Assembly: GCA_903846555.1 (NCBI GenBank)
Contig: CAINBI010000092.1
Location: forward strand, 1-47,743
Reading direction: 5' to 3'
DNA length: 47,743 nt
Source of the DNA: an uncultured Pseudomonadota bacterium
Lineage (GTDB): Bacteria > Pseudomonadota > Gammaproteobacteria > Burkholderiales > Methylophilaceae
Each line of letters opens with the position of its first letter. Position 1 is the first letter of the stretch. Made by a program: the position numbers and the translations under genes. Under the pieces are notes generated by a model. That model had not been told where the DNA came from, searched no databases, and was given only the letters and a program-made list of their open reading frames with translations. This document shows positions 4,332-9,449 of the stretch, piece by piece.

Positions 4332-4901
4332 CTACGACCTTGAGGACAATGGCGCCAGCATAATACACCTGCCATTATTTAGAGGAATAGTTATACAAAT
4401 CCAGCGAGAGAGTAAATGATCTAAACTAAGCTTACCCGCACCGCCAAACAGCAGTGGCATGAACATCACCAAATACATCAGCGGAAGTTTGTAGTTTCCA
4501 AACCCATCACCTTCTTCATCTACGATGCGGTAACCACGTAGTAACTCACCGATAGTGTTCCAGTGTTCTGGCCAGTGAACAGAAGCAATGGCGACCAAGG
4601 TCAGCGTCATCAAGGAAATGCTGAAGAAGCGTGTTGCTAACCCCAATACAAGAGCCGCTGCACCTATTAATTCAAACCAAATCGATATTTGCCAGCTGAT
4701 TTCAGCAGAAACCAGATTAAACGGGAATGGGAATGTTAAATCTGCAAACCAATTGGAGCCCGTGAGTTTTTCATATCCAGATTCGCCAAACTCCCAAGCT
4801 AATAACAAGCGTAATGCTAATGGCGGCAATATGGGTGCGATGCGTTCAAGCCAGTAAATCATGCGTGTGTAAAGGTTTATTAGTCTTGGCATAAGTATCA
4901 T
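4332..4901 (-). CDS. bufD: DoxX-family membrane protein of the bufferin operon (BufD-like)
   Basis: This is a DoxX-like integral membrane protein with about four hydrophobic segments: residues 20-35 (IAPILPPLALRLLLAWEF), about 68-90, about 92-108 and about 140-155 (LPLMYLVMFMPLLFGGAGK). It is the last gene of the bufA-bufB-bufC-bufD series, 39 nt after bufC. DoxX proteins accompany DUF2282/DUF692/DUF2063 genes in many proteobacteria. Their role in the bufferin system is not firmly known. The last ~25 residues after LSLDHLLSRW do not look like a DoxX tail and run into the possibly decayed DNA at 4.2-4.4 kb, so the natural C-terminus may have been replaced. Start chosen at MILMPRL; the next Met is also possible. 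Confidence 0.8.
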   Translation of the reverse strand: MILMPRLINLYTRMIYWLERIAPILPPLALRLLLAWEFGESGYEKLTGSNWFADLTFPFPFNLVSAEISWQISIWFELIGAAALVLGLATRFFSISLMTLTLVAIASVHWPEHWNTIGELLRGYRIVDEEGDGFGNYKLPLMYLVMFMPLLFGGAGKLSLDHLLSRWICITIPLNNGRCIMLAPLSSRS

Positions 4902-4940
4902 TCTAAGTAGGTTAAGTGGTTTGGATTGAACCGCGTTTAT

Positions 4941-5696
4941 TTAGGCAATAGCACCTAAAATTGCCCCTCTTTGCTGAAGGCTACTCAGTAACTCAGCGCC
5001 AAATTTCACCATGACAGATAAATCATGGAATTGAATTTCAGTGGCGATTGCTTCAATCGCTTGCCGGCCTGTAATTTTAGTTTCTTGCAGCAGCTCGATT
5101 AAACGTGCGCTGACTGGATTCAATTCCATAAACTGCACGGTATCATCAACATCACGAAATACCAGTAAATGGACTGCTTGCGCTAAAGGCTGGGTAGGTT
5201 TGAATCTGGGTGAAATACGGTGTACAGGGTAATCGTATTTCAAGCACACAAGCGCTGGGGCTAAAGCAGGCAACCCTGTAAGTAGGTCGCCATCTGCATC
5301 TGGAGTGGTATCTAAAGTAGCATCAGAAACAGCAATCGAAAGCTCTACCCATTCGTAATGCGCAAGGCTTAATAGGAATGGGGGCAAATCATGTGCAGCT
5401 TGTGGTGAAGTTTCCAGCCAGCGTAGCAGCTCTTCAGGTATTTTCCGGAACCATGGTGTAGTACATCGGTGATCCGTCATGAAAGCGCGTACTAGACGCT
5501 TCCAGCGACGTGCACCGATTATTTTCTTGCATACTGGGAAGCAGGCTGAGAGTGTTTCATCCATATTGTTAAACACAATAGCCGTATAGATACTCATGCC
5601 ACGGGCTTGGACACCTTTTGGCCGCAGCGACAGTTTAGGATCGCGTATGTGGTCGGTAAACTGGGTTTGATATTGCTGGAAGGTTGGTTGCATCAT
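4941..5696 (-). CDS. bufC: DUF2063 protein, partner of the DUF692 enzyme (BufC/MbnC-like)
   Basis: This 251-residue protein has the DUF2063 (putative DNA-binding) N-terminal domain: MMQPTFQQYQTQFTDHIRDP and RGMSIYTAIVFNNMDETLSACFP, then the all-alpha core and a C-terminal beta-rich part (YPVHRISPRFKPTQPLAQ). In methanobactin and bufferin systems, the equivalent protein (MbnC/BufC) forms a complex with the DUF692 enzyme and helps present the precursor peptide. The ATG lies 4 bp inside the end of bufB (ATGA overlap), pointing to translational coupling and a stoichiometric complex. The length is normal for the family. Confidence 0.88.
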   Translation of the reverse strand: MMQPTFQQYQTQFTDHIRDPKLSLRPKGVQARGMSIYTAIVFNNMDETLSACFPVCKKIIGARRWKRLVRAFMTDHRCTTPWFRKIPEELLRWLETSPQAAHDLPPFLLSLAHYEWVELSIAVSDATLDTTPDADGDLLTGLPALAPALVCLKYDYPVHRISPRFKPTQPLAQAVHLLVFRDVDDTVQFMELNPVSARLIELLQETKITGRQAIEAIATEIQFHDLSVMVKFGAELLSSLQQRGAILGAIA

Positions 5697-6547
5697 GCAA
5701 GCAAGCGTCGTGGTGTGCTTGCAAGGTATTTGCGTTGCAAGGCGGCAATATGTTCAACTTCTACAACCAAGTCAGCTAACGGTGGAATATTGATATCGCG
5801 CTCTAATAGTGTTGGAGATACGCCGAATAGTTTATAAGCTTCGTCCAGCAAGTCCCACACTGGGTCAATCACCGCGTCTCCATGGTTGTCGATGATGAGG
5901 TCGGGCGCCTCCTGCAGGTGGCCTGCAGTGTGGACATAGGCGATGCTTTCACCTGGCAACTGCCGTAAAAATTCTAACGCATCGAAACCGAAGTTGATGC
6001 TGTTGACGTAGATGTTGTTTACGTCCAGATGCAGGTCGCAATCTGCTTCTTCCAGAACAGCACGAATGAAGTCAATTTCACTCATATCAGAAACGGGTGA
6101 CGCGACATAATAAGAGGCATTCTCTATGGCGATACGGCGCTCTAAGATTTCTTGGGTACGGTGAATACGCTTGGCAACGTGTTTAACAGCTTCTTCTGTC
6201 GCTGGAATTGGCAGCAGATCATACAAGTGACCACCGACACTGGAGTAGGCAAGATGTTCGGTATATAACGGAATGTTGAATTGATCCAGAAACCCCTTGA
6301 TACGATGCAGCAGGACTTCATCTAGTGCATCAGGCCCACCTAAAGAGAGTGAAAGCCCGTGCGCAACGATGGGATAACGTTCGGCAAACCAAGCGAACTG
6401 TTTGGCGCGTGCGCCACCGATGCCAATCCAATTTTCAGGGGCAACTTCAAAAAAGTCGATGGCGGAAGGTTGTTCGGTCTGAAGCTGCGACATAAGCTCG
6501 CGCTTCAGACCGAGGCCTGCACCAGAGAGTGGCAATCTGGTTTGCAT
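5693..6547 (-). CDS. bufB: DUF692 multinuclear iron RiPP-modifying enzyme (BufB/MbnB-like)
   Basis: This DUF692 (UPF0276) TIM-barrel protein has 284 residues. MbnB and BufB homologues use a multi-iron centre to oxidise cysteines in a precursor peptide. Visible family motifs in order are LPLSGAGLGLKRELM, VAHGLSLSLGG, YTEHLAYSS, ERRIAIENASYYV, LLDVNNIYVNS (here HLDVNNIYVNS), VHTAGHLQE, DNHGDAVIDPVWDL and LLERDINIPP. These carry the His/Asp/Glu residues that bind iron in the family. The start codon is 5 nt after the bufA stop and the end overlaps bufC by 4 bp. The immediately upstream Cys-rich secreted peptide is the likely substrate. Confidence 0.9.
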   Translation of the reverse strand: MQTRLPLSGAGLGLKRELMSQLQTEQPSAIDFFEVAPENWIGIGGARAKQFAWFAERYPIVAHGLSLSLGGPDALDEVLLHRIKGFLDQFNIPLYTEHLAYSSVGGHLYDLLPIPATEEAVKHVAKRIHRTQEILERRIAIENASYYVASPVSDMSEIDFIRAVLEEADCDLHLDVNNIYVNSINFGFDALEFLRQLPGESIAYVHTAGHLQEAPDLIIDNHGDAVIDPVWDLLDEAYKLFGVSPTLLERDINIPPLADLVVEVEHIAALQRKYLASTPRRLLA

Positions 6548-6552
6548 AGTGT

Positions 6553-6909
6553 TTATTTCTTATTAGCGCTGCAATTGCCTTCTTTGGCTTTATCTTCTGA
6601 CATCGCTTTCTTTTCAGCGCTGCAATTACCTTCTTTAGCCTTCATTTCAGCTTTTCCTTTCATGGCTTTCTTTTTGCTTGCGCTACATTTACCAGTAGAG
6701 CATTTACCGTCTTTCATTTTTCCTTCCATTGCTTTTCCATCGGCAGGCATATCTGCCGCTTTGGTGTCCGCTTCTGCAACCATATAACCGCTAGACAGTG
6801 CTTGCATCGCAAATGGATTTTGTGTTGCATGCACAACTGGAGCCAATGCTAAAGATGAAACAAAGGCTGCGCCGATGATGGCTGATAGAGTTTTATTTGG
6901 TGTTTTCAT
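6553..6909 (-). CDS. bufA: Bufferin-type RiPP precursor, DUF2282-like Cys/Lys-rich secreted peptide
   Basis: This 118-residue protein has a clear Sec signal peptide (MKTPNKTLSAIIGAAFVSSL..., cleavage near VHA-28). The mature part is rich in Lys, Ala, Met and Glu and holds exactly four cysteines, at 70, 75, 96 and 113. They sit in DGKCS, TGKCS and two EGNCS motifs; the last two are in a 17-residue imperfect repeat (AKEGNCSAxKK). Known bufferins carry EGKCG motifs whose Cys are converted to copper-binding thiooxazoles by BufB/BufC. The motifs here differ (Asn and Ser in place of Lys and Gly), so modification is inferred from the operon, not from an exact motif match. An ECF promoter lies 82-111 nt upstream of the start. 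Confidence 0.85.
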   Translation of the reverse strand: MKTPNKTLSAIIGAAFVSSLALAPVVHATQNPFAMQALSSGYMVAEADTKAADMPADGKAMEGKMKDGKCSTGKCSASKKKAMKGKAEMKAKEGNCSAEKKAMSEDKAKEGNCSANKK

Positions 6910-6990
6910 TAGATATTCCTTGAATAATAATTAAGTGAAACTTAGGTTGAGATCCGGCAATGTTAAATGACGTTACTGAATCGCATGTAT

Positions 6991-7020
6991 ATTAGACGAA
7001 TGAACTGACGATTCCTTACA
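6991..7020 (-). promoter_or_regulatory. ECF-sigma promoter P1 for the buf operon
   Basis: The minus strand has -35 TGTAAGGAAT (7020-7011), a 12-nt spacer, and -10 CGTCTAAT (6998-6991). The same -35 decamer with identical spacing occurs before the thioredoxin-ccdA pair and before the peptide-sigma-antisigma unit. The GGAA-type -35 and CGTC-type -10 are typical of ECF sigma factors. The resident sigma factor is the obvious candidate. Confidence 0.85.
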
Positions 7021-7159
7021 AATTATTTTTAACATTCATCAAAATAAATATCTAACACTCTCCAGAATTAATTTGTTAAGTAGGCTCCAAGTCTTTCTGA
7101 TTACCTCGATGCTCTGTTGACTTTAAAGACTCACTAAATTTAGATGTGAATGCCATTAT

Positions 7160-7888
7160 TTATATAGATGTTGTAAGCCGAACGAGCCAATCAGGCGCAA
7201 GCTTTAGAGCTGCTGTTTCAAATTTCTTGTCTGCACCAGTCACAATCATCAAGCCTAGCGCCAGTAATAGAGTCCCAAGTATTTTCTTGCCTGCGGAGCC
7301 TGCGGTCAGCATCTTGTCACGAAACTTCATCACAGCCTGACGCGAGAGCATGCCAAAGATAATCAAAGGGGTACTGGCACCTATACCAAAGAGTGCCATG
7401 ACTAGCGTCGCATGCGCAAGGCTCTGACCTTGACTAGCGAGGGTTATCGTGGCCCCCAAAGTCGGCCCTACGCAAGGGCTCCAGACGATGCCAAGCAGTA
7501 GGCCAAGTGCAAATTGACCTAACAAACCATCTGTTGAAATGCGACTTAGCAGGGATTGCCCTGAACCGCTCAAACCAGAAGTGGCAACGGCAAACTTCGC
7601 CTGCAATGTACTGGAAAGCAAAGTGATACCAAATAAAATGAGTAAAACTGCTGCAATATTACGAAAAACTTCTTGGTCTAAACCAATTGCAACCCCCACG
7701 CTGGCAATAAATACGCCAACAATGGTGAATGAAGATGCCAAACCAGCGGCCAATGCTATTGCACCAAAGCGATGTGCCAACACGGCGGATCCGACCAGTA
7801 TTGGCAACAATGGCAACACGCAGGGTGATAGCGTGGACAATACTCCAGCCAGATAACTGAGACCATAAGTTCCAAATGCAGTAAACAT
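7160..7888 (-). CDS. CcdA/DsbD-like thiol-reductant transporter
   Basis: This 242-residue polytopic membrane protein has about six hydrophobic segments. It carries the two conserved cysteines of the CcdA/DsbD transmembrane domain, in STLSPCVLPLLPIL (first helix) and WSPCVGPTLGATI (fourth helix). Such proteins move electrons from cytoplasmic thioredoxin to periplasmic thiol proteins. It begins 10 nt after the thioredoxin-like gene, which would be its partner, and both are downstream of ECF promoter P2. In this island it would keep cysteines of a secreted metal-binding peptide or its handlers reduced (inference). It is a CcdA-type, not full-length DsbD. Confidence 0.88.
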   Translation of the reverse strand: MFTAFGTYGLSYLAGVLSTLSPCVLPLLPILVGSAVLAHRFGAIALAAGLASSFTIVGVFIASVGVAIGLDQEVFRNIAAVLLILFGITLLSSTLQAKFAVATSGLSGSGQSLLSRISTDGLLGQFALGLLLGIVWSPCVGPTLGATITLASQGQSLAHATLVMALFGIGASTPLIIFGMLSRQAVMKFRDKMLTAGSAGKKILGTLLLALGLMIVTGADKKFETAALKLAPDWLVRLTTSI

Positions 7889-7898
7889 GCTAAACCCT

Positions 7899-8279
7899 TT
7901 ACAAAGCCTTACGTAACAGGTTTTCGATGCTTTCAGGTGAAGTATCCCCTAAACTGCGGCCAACTTCTTTACCACCCTTAAATACAATTAGAGTACTTTG
8001 CTGAATGACGTGAAAAGATCGAACAACATCCTTTTGGTTATCGAAGTCAACGCGAAGTAAAGTGATTCCCTGATAGTCCTTTTGCTTGAGCAAGGACGCG
8101 ATTATGGGTGCTTGTGCTCTACAGGTCGGACACCAGTCCGCATGAATGCCGACAAGAACGGGTTTGCCTTCATGTTGCAGCCTGTCGAAAGCTGCTTGGG
8201 TAAATGGTATCGTATCAGCCATAGCGGTGCTTACGACCATGAATGACAATATGAGGATGTGACGCAATAACGATTTCAT
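7899..8279 (-). CDS. Periplasmic thioredoxin-family protein
   Basis: This 126-residue protein starts with a Sec signal peptide (MKSLLRHILILSFMVVSTAMA). The mature domain is a thioredoxin fold with active site WCPTC (in GIHADWCPTCRAQAP) and the downstream GGKEVGRSLG strand. The cis-Pro position is not clearly conserved (QSTLIVFKGG has Thr-Leu), which may alter redox behaviour. GGGAG lies 6 nt before the ATG. It is followed at once by the CcdA-like gene. ECF promoter P2 lies about 30-59 nt upstream, so the pair is probably induced with the bufferin genes. Confidence 0.88.
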   Translation of the reverse strand: MKSLLRHILILSFMVVSTAMADTIPFTQAAFDRLQHEGKPVLVGIHADWCPTCRAQAPIIASLLKQKDYQGITLLRVDFDNQKDVVRSFHVIQQSTLIVFKGGKEVGRSLGDTSPESIENLLRKAL

Positions 8280-8308
8280 GATGAACTCCCTTAAAAATGG
8301 AAATGCTA

Positions 8309-8338
8309 GTTGGTCGTATTCGGAGATGATTCCTTACA
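8309..8338 (-). promoter_or_regulatory. ECF-sigma promoter P2 for thioredoxin-ccdA
   Basis: The minus strand has TGTAAGGAAT (8338-8329), a 12-nt spacer, then CGACCAAC (8316-8309). The -35 and spacing are identical to P1 and P3, while the -10 is the most divergent of the three (CGACCAA against CGTCTAA). It is therefore perhaps the weakest promoter of the regulon. Confidence 0.8.
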
Positions 8339-8374
8339 ACCAAATATCAGGCAGTCATGGAATATTAGATTAGA

Positions 8375-8632
8375 TCAGACTACCTTATCTTGTTGTTTGA
8401 GTAAAGTTTCCTGAATGCGTTTTTTAGCCTCATCAGAAAGATGCATAGATTCACAATGACCACATGTGTCAAAATGACTTACAACCTTGTGCAGAAATGA
8501 AATCTGGCTTAAGAAATTCGTACAGCCGTGGCACATCATGAGATGAAATTTGAGTGATATCTTCTTACCGAAAGGTAATGGAGCATCCATCGACTGAGAC
8601 ATCAATTCACTTGCTTGTTTGCAGTTCACCAT
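8375..8632 (-). CDS. Zinc-finger anti-sigma factor
   Basis: This 85-residue protein starts at MVNCKQASELMSQSMDAPLP, the form seen in anti-sigma factors partnered with this ECF group. The ATG is preferred over an upstream TTG inside the sigma gene because GAGG lies 8 nt before it. It has the zinc motif HLMMCHGC (H-x3-C-x2-C) and a C-terminal CGHC pair, and no membrane segment. It starts 11 nt after the sigma factor stop. Binding of metal or oxidation of these Cys would release the sigma factor (inference from the ZAS family). Confidence 0.85.
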   Translation of the reverse strand: MVNCKQASELMSQSMDAPLPFGKKISLKFHLMMCHGCTNFLSQISFLHKVVSHFDTCGHCESMHLSDEAKKRIQETLLKQQDKVV

Positions 8633-8642
8633 ATATTCAGCC

Positions 8643-9209
8643 TCAATTAGCCCAATGAATTTCGAGGCACTTGCCAAGCGCTAGTCGGGCTCGATGCATT
8701 AGTACCCAAACGTTATTTGGACTTAAAGAATAGTTGTCACTAATCTCTTCGTTATCCATGCCATGGACTTCTTTGGCAAGAAAAATCTCCGCCTGTTGCG
8801 GCTTCAGTTTTGACATACAAATTTCGAAGATGCCCCAGAACTGTTTACTCTCCAAGGCTGAATCTGGATTAGGGTAAATGTTAGGCATGTCTGTCCAGCG
8901 CCCGGCTTTGTCAAAAAAATCATCTACGTTGCCATTGTCGGCATCATCCATTAAATCGGTAGCAGATATTTCACGTCCTTGCCGCCGCCAATAGTCCACC
9001 ATTTTATTTTTAAGGATAGAGGTAAGCCATGTTCGGATGGAGGCTTTAGGCTGAAAGTATTCCTTAGCTGTGATTGCTGAGATAAGGGTATCTTGCACCA
9101 TGTCCTCAGCTAAAGCCCTATCTTTCAGCCTCTGCAAGGCAAAGTGGAATAGGTAATCCCCATGTTCTTCAAGCCAAGTATTTGAGTTCAGAGCATTACC
9201 TTTTTCCAT
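8643..9209 (-). CDS. ECF RNA polymerase sigma factor
   Basis: This 188-residue protein has the two-domain ECF layout. Region 2 reads LQRLKDRALAEDMVQDTLIS and then SIRTWLTSILKNKMVDYWRR; region 4 reads LKPQQAEIFLAKEVHGMDNE followed by EISDNYSLSPNNVWVLMHRA. There is an acidic linker between them. It is followed by its zinc anti-sigma factor and preceded in the same unit by a Cys-rich 44-aa peptide. Promoter P3 upstream shares the P1/P2 motif, so autoregulation is likely. ECF factors next to DUF2282/DUF692 genes are common in proteobacteria and respond to copper or other metals in studied cases. The inducer here is unknown. Confidence 0.92.
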   Translation of the reverse strand: MEKGNALNSNTWLEEHGDYLFHFALQRLKDRALAEDMVQDTLISAITAKEYFQPKASIRTWLTSILKNKMVDYWRRQGREISATDLMDDADNGNVDDFFDKAGRWTDMPNIYPNPDSALESKQFWGIFEICMSKLKPQQAEIFLAKEVHGMDNEEISDNYSLSPNNVWVLMHRARLALGKCLEIHWAN

Positions 9210-9232
9210 AACTTACCGATAAATAGTTCCAA

Positions 9233-9367
9233 TTAAAACCAGTGTAGCACCCAGTGACCAACGGCACCTAAAACCATGACCATGACAACTACCATCATCA
9301 TTTTTTCGTGAATACACATTCCATTGGTGGCTGAGCATTGGCCATTCATATTGCACATTAAAGACAT
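9233..9367 (-). CDS. 44-aa cysteine-rich single-pass membrane peptide
   Basis: This short ORF reads MSLMCNMNGQCSATNGMCIH and then a methionine/valine-rich hydrophobic helix (about residues 23-43) ending in HWF. Cys at 5, 11 and 18, six or more Met and several His make the N-terminal part a plausible soft-metal ligand. GGGAG lies just before the start, the ORF lies between ECF promoter P3 and the sigma factor gene, and its stop is 23 nt before the sigma start. It is therefore the first gene of the autoregulated unit. I do not recognise a named family. It could be a metal-sensing or metal-binding accessory peptide (inference). Confidence 0.65.
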   Translation of the reverse strand: MSLMCNMNGQCSATNGMCIHEKMMMVVVMVMVLGAVGHWVLHWF

Positions 9368-9419
9368 TTTTTAACTCCCGTTTGATTAGTAGAACATCCT
9401 GTAAGTTGTGGATGTGTAT

Positions 9420-9449
9420 CTTAAACGAATGAGAACAAAATTCCTTACA
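9420..9449 (-). promoter_or_regulatory. ECF-sigma promoter P3 for the peptide-sigma-antisigma unit
   Basis: The minus strand has TGTAAGGAAT (9449-9440), a 12-nt spacer, and CGTTTAAG (9427-9420). It lies 53 nt upstream of the 44-aa peptide. It shares also a TCATT stretch just before the -10 with P1. Confidence 0.83.

Follow-up and report, generated by a model that had tools for sequence, protein, structure and literature searches.

A predicted ECF-sigma stress circuit joining a metallophore-type RiPP operon to a thioredoxin–CcdA unit, and a putative promoter within related sigma genes

The stretch of DNA analysed here (the window) comprises 47,743 nucleotides of contig CAINBI010000092.1 from the assembly GCA_903846555.1, an uncultured bacterium of the family Methylophilaceae. 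At positions 4332–9449, it carries three gene units on the minus strand, each of which is preceded by a candidate promoter for an extracytoplasmic function (ECF) sigma factor (Table 1): a 44-residue peptide (pep44) followed by the sigma and anti-sigma factors, a thioredoxin–CcdA pair, and an operon for a ribosomally synthesized and post-translationally modified peptide (RiPP). A first-pass annotation of the sequence had described this locus as a self-contained ECF-sigma regulon around a bufferin-type RiPP operon. The start of the anti-sigma gene is probably the ATG at 8632, which corrects an earlier gene call; counted from this start, the protein has Cys4, His30, Cys34, and Cys37. Neither pep44 nor the RiPP precursor matched a Pfam family, and no DUF2282 was found in the precursor.

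Table 1. Predicted promoters and genes of the locus, in positions of the window
Feature	Position	Strand	Description
ECF promoter P1	9421..9449	(-)	TGTAAGGAAT-N12-CGTTTAA; upstream of pep44-sigma-antisigma
ECF promoter P2	8310..8338	(-)	TGTAAGGAAT-N12-CGACCAA; upstream of thioredoxin-CcdA
ECF promoter P3	6992..7020	(-)	TGTAAGGAAT-N12-CGTCTAA; upstream of RiPP operon (precursor-MNIO-DUF2063-DoxX)
pep44, 44-aa peptide	9233..9367	(-)	Cys/Met/His-rich N-terminus (MSLMC..GMCIHEKMM) and one membrane helix (by eye)
ECF sigma factor, TIGR02943 family	8643..9209	(-)	Sigma70_r2/r4 (Pfam); NCBIfam 185.8 bits, cut-off 162.2
ZAS-type anti-sigma	8375..8632	(-)	zf-HC2 (Pfam); NF052368 antisigmaE 66.3 bits, cut-off 50
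Exported thioredoxin (WCPTC)	7899..8279	(-)	PF00085; N-terminus signal-peptide-like by eye
CcdA/DsbD-type membrane thiol reductase	7160..7888	(-)	PF02683 (DsbD_TM)
RiPP precursor	6553..6909	(-)	Signal peptide by eye; repeated DGKC/EGNCSA motifs, oxazolin/captophorin-like
MNIO maturase, HvfB family	5693..6547	(-)	PF05114; NF003818 403.1 bits, cut-off 360
MNIO partner protein	4941..5696	(-)	DUF2063 / NGO1945 C-terminal domain (Pfam)
DoxX-family membrane protein	4332..4901	(-)	PF07681

The first-pass annotation had reported three minus-strand promoters with a 12-nt spacer and none elsewhere in the window, and both statements hold exactly. All three sites fit TGTAAGGAAT-N12-CGWYYAA with no mismatch, and a pattern search of the window returned no further match, even when up to three mismatches were allowed; at that level, shuffled sequence gave a mean of 0.77 matches, with at least three matches in 6 of 100 shuffles. 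The distances from site to start codon are 53 nt for pep44, 30 nt for the thioredoxin, and 82 nt for the RiPP precursor. The genome-wide motif search that had been proposed as a check was carried out on the own assembly (2,579,565 bases in 170 contigs), in which TGTAAGGAAT-N12-CGNNNAA occurs three times in exact form, each time at this locus. With up to two mismatches, this pattern gave 18 matches vs. 30 for the reversed pattern, i.e., the background level, and thus the weaker matches are regarded as noise. The shortened pattern TGTAAGGAAT-N12-CG has four exact matches, the fourth being on contig C69, and one-mismatch matches lie on contigs C69 and C82 as well, while GTAAGGNNT-N12-CGNNNAA has five matches (three of them the window sites) vs. 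two for the reversed control. The published neisserial sigmaE promoter is GTMAGBWTT-12/13 nt-CGTCTAAH (PMC2893595). The −35 element GTAAGGAAT fits eight of the nine positions of GTMAGBWTT with a spacer of 12, and the neisserial −10 element CGTCTAA is found exactly in P3, with one mismatch in P1, and with two in P2.

Judged by family models, with TIGR02943 chosen in this analysis as the marker, the sigma and anti-sigma factors are of the neisserial sigmaE–MseR or Haemophilus RpoE2–HrsE type, which the promoter and the predicted metallophore target resemble as well. Cys4, His30, Cys34, and Cys37 occupy identical positions in the anti-sigma that adjoins the Neisseria sigma (locus L304). Cys4 and Cys37 are reported to matter for the activity of Neisseria MseR and to be equivalent to the disulphide pair of RsrA (PMC2893595). 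The bufferin assignment, on the other hand, is not upheld. Since the MNIO passes the HvfB cut-off and falls below that of the bufferin maturase BufB (271 bits, cut-off 310), the RiPP is assigned to the captophorin/oxazolin kind, and the lack of DUF2282 in the precursor also speaks against a bufferin. The precursor itself gives a weak score with the HvfA model (23.3 bits, cut-off 95), and its homologs beside MNIO genes in loci of the genus are 40–51% identical.

In our view, the locus is probably an ECF-sigma stress circuit with autoregulation, of the sigmaE–MseR/RpoE2–HrsE type, present as a second copy that was acquired and rewired. The cytoplasmic ZAS anti-sigma would hold the sigma via a zinc–thiol site formed by the four residues named above. 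Oxidation of this site, or its capture by a thiol-reactive agent (an oxidant, e.g., hypochlorous acid (HOCl), or a soft metal, e.g., copper), would free the sigma, which would transcribe the three units from the TGTAAGGAAT-N12-CG(T/A)YYAA promoters. The pep44–sigma–anti-sigma unit would then serve as feedback, the thioredoxin–CcdA unit would deliver electrons to periplasmic thiols, and the precursor–MNIO–DUF2063–DoxX unit would make an exported, metal-binding modified peptide. The sites, the gene families, and the recurrence of the promoter class ahead of similar genes elsewhere are seen in the sequence, and we infer transcription by the window sigma, the inducer, the peptide chemistry, and copper binding. 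Taken as a whole, the circuit very probably forms a single regulon that belongs to a known sigma type and has been rewired and extended.

Related promoters precede the same kinds of genes in other genera and families of the order. The genome G436 contains TGTAAGGNNT-N12-CGNNNAA twice, before pep44–sigma–anti-sigma and before MsrPQ, and its RiPP operon has the gene order of the window, with the MNIO at 83%. Also in G436, a site close to the consensus stands where DUF2063 ends, immediately ahead of DoxX (L181:4971-5000), and suggests a separate DoxX promoter; no such site was found at the corresponding position of the window. The genome G435 has two sites, one before an operon of a DUF2282-type precursor and an MNIO, the other before a cluster which resembles arsenosugar clusters but passes no ArsS cut-off and which combines a DUF2064-like gene with genes for a glycosyltransferase, a methyltransferase, and a radical-SAM protein. 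Together, G435, G436, G047, G073, and G218 gave 10 matches vs. 1 for the reversed pattern; one match of G073 falls within the sigma gene.

A scan of 399 genomes of the order for TGTAAGRNNT-N12-CGACYAA found 72 places in 50 genomes vs. 20 for the reversed control. The surroundings of all 72 were retrieved, and two share identical flanks, leaving 71 sites, of which 14 lie within a sigma gene and 35 just upstream of a regulon-family gene: MsrP (12), a DUF2282-type precursor (7), thioredoxin (4, including that of the window), and a further nine kinds, each represented once or twice. Outside sigma genes, 35 of 57 sites thus precede a family gene, vs. 5.7% (1096 of 19,200) of positions drawn at random from these regions, a count which is favoured by some seed proteins having come from the same loci. 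MsrP is the cleanest case, its seed being from G436, outside the sample. The earlier proposal of a single ECF-sigma circuit that links RiPP synthesis to the reduction of periplasmic thiols thus gains from this recurrence, and from the Neisseria and Haemophilus relatives that are described as controlling a homologous metallophore operon; its terms "bufferin-type" and "self-contained" fare less well.

The second of these terms is made doubtful by a resident paralog. Contig C154 (G000; L047:4400-6017) carries sigma, anti-sigma, and precursor genes followed by an MNIO in pieces, the precursor frame being open. This order, sigma–anti-sigma–precursor–MNIO, is shared by 26 of the 28 loci taken from the genus of the window; several small genomes of the genus have no close sigma. 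The window sigma is 46% identical to that of C154, and its listed best matches in 36 other genomes of the genus are at most 49% identical. In a phylogenetic tree, the sigmas of the window, G435, and G436 form one group (support 100/97), adjoining Nitrosomonas, and the C154 sigma sits among genus members. The nearest named relative of the window sigma is from a Methylophilaceae bacterium, all 379 records from a search of a plasmid collection are below 60% identity, and the GC content of the locus is not distinct from its surroundings. The window locus appears to be the second, acquired copy. The window maturase might serve both precursors, its own and that of C154.

Because the C154 sigma gene holds internally TGTAAGGAAC-N12-CGACCAA, nearly the same site as the window promoters, cross-talk is likely. 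It is possible, though the less probable case, that the three window sites are served mainly by the C154 sigma, or by both sigmas interchangeably, which would make a merged two-sigma regulon. The broken MNIO on C154, the internal site, and the 46% identity are in keeping with such a merger. However, the region 4.2 residues differ (SDNYSLSPNN in the window, CKELNISTTN in C154), and an upstream site and an anti-sigma of its own accompany the window sigma, which speaks against a merger.

For the thioredoxin–CcdA arm, we compared 19 other such loci, the best-scoring of 34 matches in the 399 genomes. Within 160 nt upstream, 10 of the 19 carry an ECF-type promoter (seven of type GTAAG..CG and three of type GTAACC-N16-CGAA), vs. 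a mean of 0.027 (maximum 2) in 1000 shuffles, with patterns that were fixed after these sequences had been viewed; 4 of the 19 have one on the opposite strand. Two sigma types may thus have recruited the same thioredoxin–CcdA pair. The GTAACC-N16-CGAA site, SigF-like as published for Caulobacter, is seen upstream of the thioredoxin in L139, L140, and L155. In G151, one locus has nine matches to a loose GTAAG pattern, four of which precede, in turn, an ArsM-like gene (178 bits against a cut-off of 263), a DUF2282/MNIO operon, thioredoxin–CcdA, and, divergently, a Cys-rich NPCA-repeat gene. In G073 and G218, the sigma–anti-sigma pair adjoins thioredoxin–CcdA.

The thioredoxin–CcdA unit and the RiPP operon could instead be separate stress modules, neighbours by chance, with the thioredoxin belonging to plasmid-spread arsenosugar/ECF clusters. 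An ECF sigma, thioredoxin, CcdA, and an annotated arsS do stand together on Acinetobacter and Burkholderia plasmids (L305, L306), and G047 has the promoter–thioredoxin–CcdA unit with no MNIO found in the genome. We regard this explanation as unlikely, however, given the one G151 locus in which sites of the looser pattern precede the MNIO operon, thioredoxin–CcdA, and the ArsM-like gene alike, and the adjoining sigma–anti-sigma pairs of G073 and G218. The first-pass annotation had assigned the thioredoxin the role of keeping cysteines reduced for modification. This role is improbable because the maturase of the oxazolin pathway is reported to favour the full-length precursor bearing its signal peptide, with modification preceding export (PMC13419390), and because of the G047 unit. 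For the same two reasons, thioredoxin–CcdA is read as a parallel output, and parallel envelope repair fits this arm better than aid to RiPP modification.

Cys-rich NPCA-repeat proteins were also seen beside thioredoxin–CcdA or MNIO genes in L183, L185, L199, L200, and L303, often with a site of the class; that of L199 has cytochrome c matches slightly above the Pfam cut-off. On the strand opposite the thioredoxin, back-to-back sites (L199:7098, L200:6783) suggest divergent promoters for thioredoxin–CcdA and the NPCA gene.

Several observations weigh against the proposed circuit. Among nine genomes searched, the 12 matches (in six genomes) compare with 7 for the reversed pattern (in four genomes), and three of the nine had no match. 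One of the two G218 sites precedes no recognised gene, the examined one of two G437 matches lies opposite a long gene and is likely due to chance, and no recognised family gene follows 22 of the 71 order-wide sites. The two closest sigma relatives lack a close thioredoxin–CcdA (no match in G435, and a 26% DsbD-like match only in G436), the G435 sigma has no such promoter upstream, and the promoter region of the G436 RiPP operon is cut off by the contig end. The fixed patterns fit only 2 of 10 held-out thioredoxin loci from a class sample. The C154 paralog could use the window sites too, and the G047 unit occurs apart from any MNIO found.

The most surprising part of the analysis is a predicted promoter embedded in sister genes of the window sigma. 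The sites within sigma genes fall on the codons of region 4.2, CK(E/x)LxI(T/S)xTN, upstream of the anti-sigma, and were found in L014, in 27 of the loci L019–L046, and in others (L063, L065, L066, and L068). To describe their codons, 107 distinct sigma genes were aligned and 27 rows from motif-fetched loci were removed, including the sigma genes of the window, G436, and C154; of the remaining 80, 45 encode the Cys-Lys pair. The Cys codon is TGT in 44 of these 45 (49 of 103 other Cys codons in the same genes), and the Lys codon is AAG in 44 of 45 (139 of 459 elsewhere). At the eighth position, 44 of the 45 genes encode Ala, Pro, Thr, or Ser, and all 44 do so with an NCG codon, vs. 297 of 1491 codons for these amino acids elsewhere (p = 1.8e-30, uncorrected for kinship). 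After thinning to less than 60% identity, the counts are 12/12 for TGT, 11/12 for AAG, and 11/11 for NCG, and in a codon-constraint scan of 29 thinned genes the three motif columns take the top three places among 169 (z = 18.6, 15.6, and 13.2). A held-out set of 29 sigma genes, fetched by profile from the class sample, contains 17 with Cys-Lys, in which TGT is used in 12 (p = 0.01) and AAG in 16 (p = 0.001); at the eighth position, three of the 17 have Glu, Arg, or Gln, and the 14 with Ala, Pro, Thr, or Ser all use NCG (p = 4e-8). Five further held-out genes have TGT-CAG with NCG, which is also compatible with the published GTMAG. The view of in-gene matches as a coding coincidence was dropped after this codon test.

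The embedded consensus, TGTAAG-N16-CG(A/T)C.AA, has the same spacing as the intergenic sites. The complete site is present in 40 of the 80 aligned genes, carried by 27 of 28 genes from the genus of the window and by 13 of 52 others, and in 9 of the 29 held-out genes. An anti-sigma gene is next in 39 of 40 genes with the site vs. 16 of 40 without, and an MNIO lies within 2.5 kb in 32 of 40 vs. 2 of 40, contrasts which are weakened by kinship, short contigs, and the many site-less genes that are distant homologs. None of the 80 genes, with or without the embedded site, has a promoter of the class within 400 nt upstream. A search for TGTAA-N15-19-CG upstream of sigma and precursor genes in 30 loci (L018–L047; 28 of the window's genus, and L047, the own resident) gave nothing convincing: one TGTAAAC match lies 124 nt upstream of the L018 sigma, and TGTAACC matches lie 202 nt from the L039 precursor and 178 nt from the L044 precursor. 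The embedded promoter, if real, would account for this absence. The Neisseria locus L304 has no embedded site, its promoter preceding the operon and its sigma lying near the operon end. The sigmas of the window, G435, and G436 have changed region 4.2 residues, and with them the embedded site is gone; the window has discrete promoters.

It appears quite probable, from these codon patterns, that in a large group of ECF sigma factors the sigma's own promoter is written in the region 4.2 codons of its gene (TGT AAG/TGT CAG ... NCG ACY AAY), driving the anti-sigma and often the metallophore operon, and that the lineage of the window lost this promoter, uses discrete ones, and added pep44 and thioredoxin–CcdA. 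The fixed codons could alternatively reflect needs of mRNA structure or translation, which would suit their place within a coding region, the nearly equal score of a constraint column outside the motif (z = 12.1 vs. 13.2 for the third motif column), and the modest held-out counts for the complete site and for TGT. We think this improbable, however, since the fixed bases give the same −35 element, spacing, and −10 element as the intergenic sites, since NCG is kept across four amino acids both in genes not chosen by motif (44/44) and in held-out ones (14/14), and since NCG is found in only 5 of 17 sigma genes without that Cys. If the embedded promoter is real, one stretch of DNA encodes a DNA-reading helix and is at the same time the site read by that protein, and a feedback that lifts the anti-sigma but not the sigma is predicted.

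That the repeated motif of the window is merely chance or a duplication artefact is hardly credible: P1 and P3 have, by eye, extra bases in common around the −10 element, which could mean that one was copied from the other, and the two-mismatch assembly count is at background, but the exact sites are confined to the locus in the right position and orientation, lie near a published sigma consensus, and belong to a class that recurs before the same kinds of genes in other families of the order.

The small peptide pep44 was found in 4 of the 399 genomes, the own genome included, and its homologs outside the window are those of G436, G073, G160, and G293. It lies within a locus of this regulon in the first three of these, and the G293 copy is at a contig end. 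In G436 (L058), pep44 is preceded by TGTAAGGATT-N12-CGTTTAA, with position and spacing as in the window. Between the two, 35 of 44 residues are kept, with 10 synonymous and 9 non-synonymous codon differences, and the N-terminus MSLMC-M-G-C-GMCIHEKMM is almost fixed among the homologs. Our guess is that pep44 is a sensor or metal-handling peptide.

The proposed circuit would bring copper-binding modified peptides, which are a young class, and the repair of envelope thiols and methionine under one sigma type, and it offers a concrete candidate regulon for environmental bacteria, with MNIO peptides, thioredoxin–CcdA, MsrPQ, and others. Relative to the known sigma type, the predicted additions are a tiny new peptide (pep44), the thioredoxin–CcdA arm, and the placing of three discrete units under one stress switch. 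The main text of a paper on the landscape of MNIO clusters (PMC12452194) contains no match for thioredoxin or CcdA, and among the open-licence papers listed by literature searches, none reports, by title or abstract opening, thioredoxin–CcdA linked to an MNIO and an ECF sigma, or an anti-sigma promoter located inside a sigma gene.

We compare the locus with five known systems, as far as the published parts cited here describe them. First, Caulobacter SigF–NrsF is likewise an ECF sigma system over DUF2063-containing operons, which responds to metal stress (PMC3511200), whereas its promoter is GTAACC-N16-CGAA and its partner is NrsF, in contrast to the different promoter and ZAS anti-sigma of the window. 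Second, Brucella BcrS–AbcS (ECF16) is an ECF system as well, induced by HOCl and controlling MsrQP-like genes; however, its promoter is TGTAAC/CGAA, and DUF2063 has no match in the main text of that paper (PMC8315932). Third, the captophorin/oxazolin system (HvfABC) has an HvfB-family maturase, a DUF2063 partner, and a Cys-repeat precursor (PMC12668002), as does the window, whereas its repeats are EGKCG rather than DGKC/EGNCSA, and the window precursor does not reach the HvfA cut-off. Fourth, H. influenzae RpoE2–HrsE pairs an ECF sigma with a small zinc anti-sigma, and RpoE2 governs a doxX/MNIO operon, the target predicted for the window, together with MsrAB under HOCl (PMC7907618). However, rpoE2 is scarcely self-regulated there, and thioredoxin–CcdA and pep44 are absent from the parts of that work considered here. 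Fifth, Neisseria sigmaE (NMB2144)–MseR has, like the window, a sigma gene with a downstream ZAS anti-sigma that bears Cys4 and Cys37, and its promoter is partly similar; in L304, one such site is followed, for open reading frames read by eye, by a DoxX-like gene, an EGKCG-repeat precursor, MNIO-like and DUF2063-like genes, sigma, and anti-sigma. In Neisseria, the sigma sits at the end of the single metallophore operon, with MsrAB as the second target, whereas the window has three separate units, a thioredoxin–CcdA arm, and pep44.

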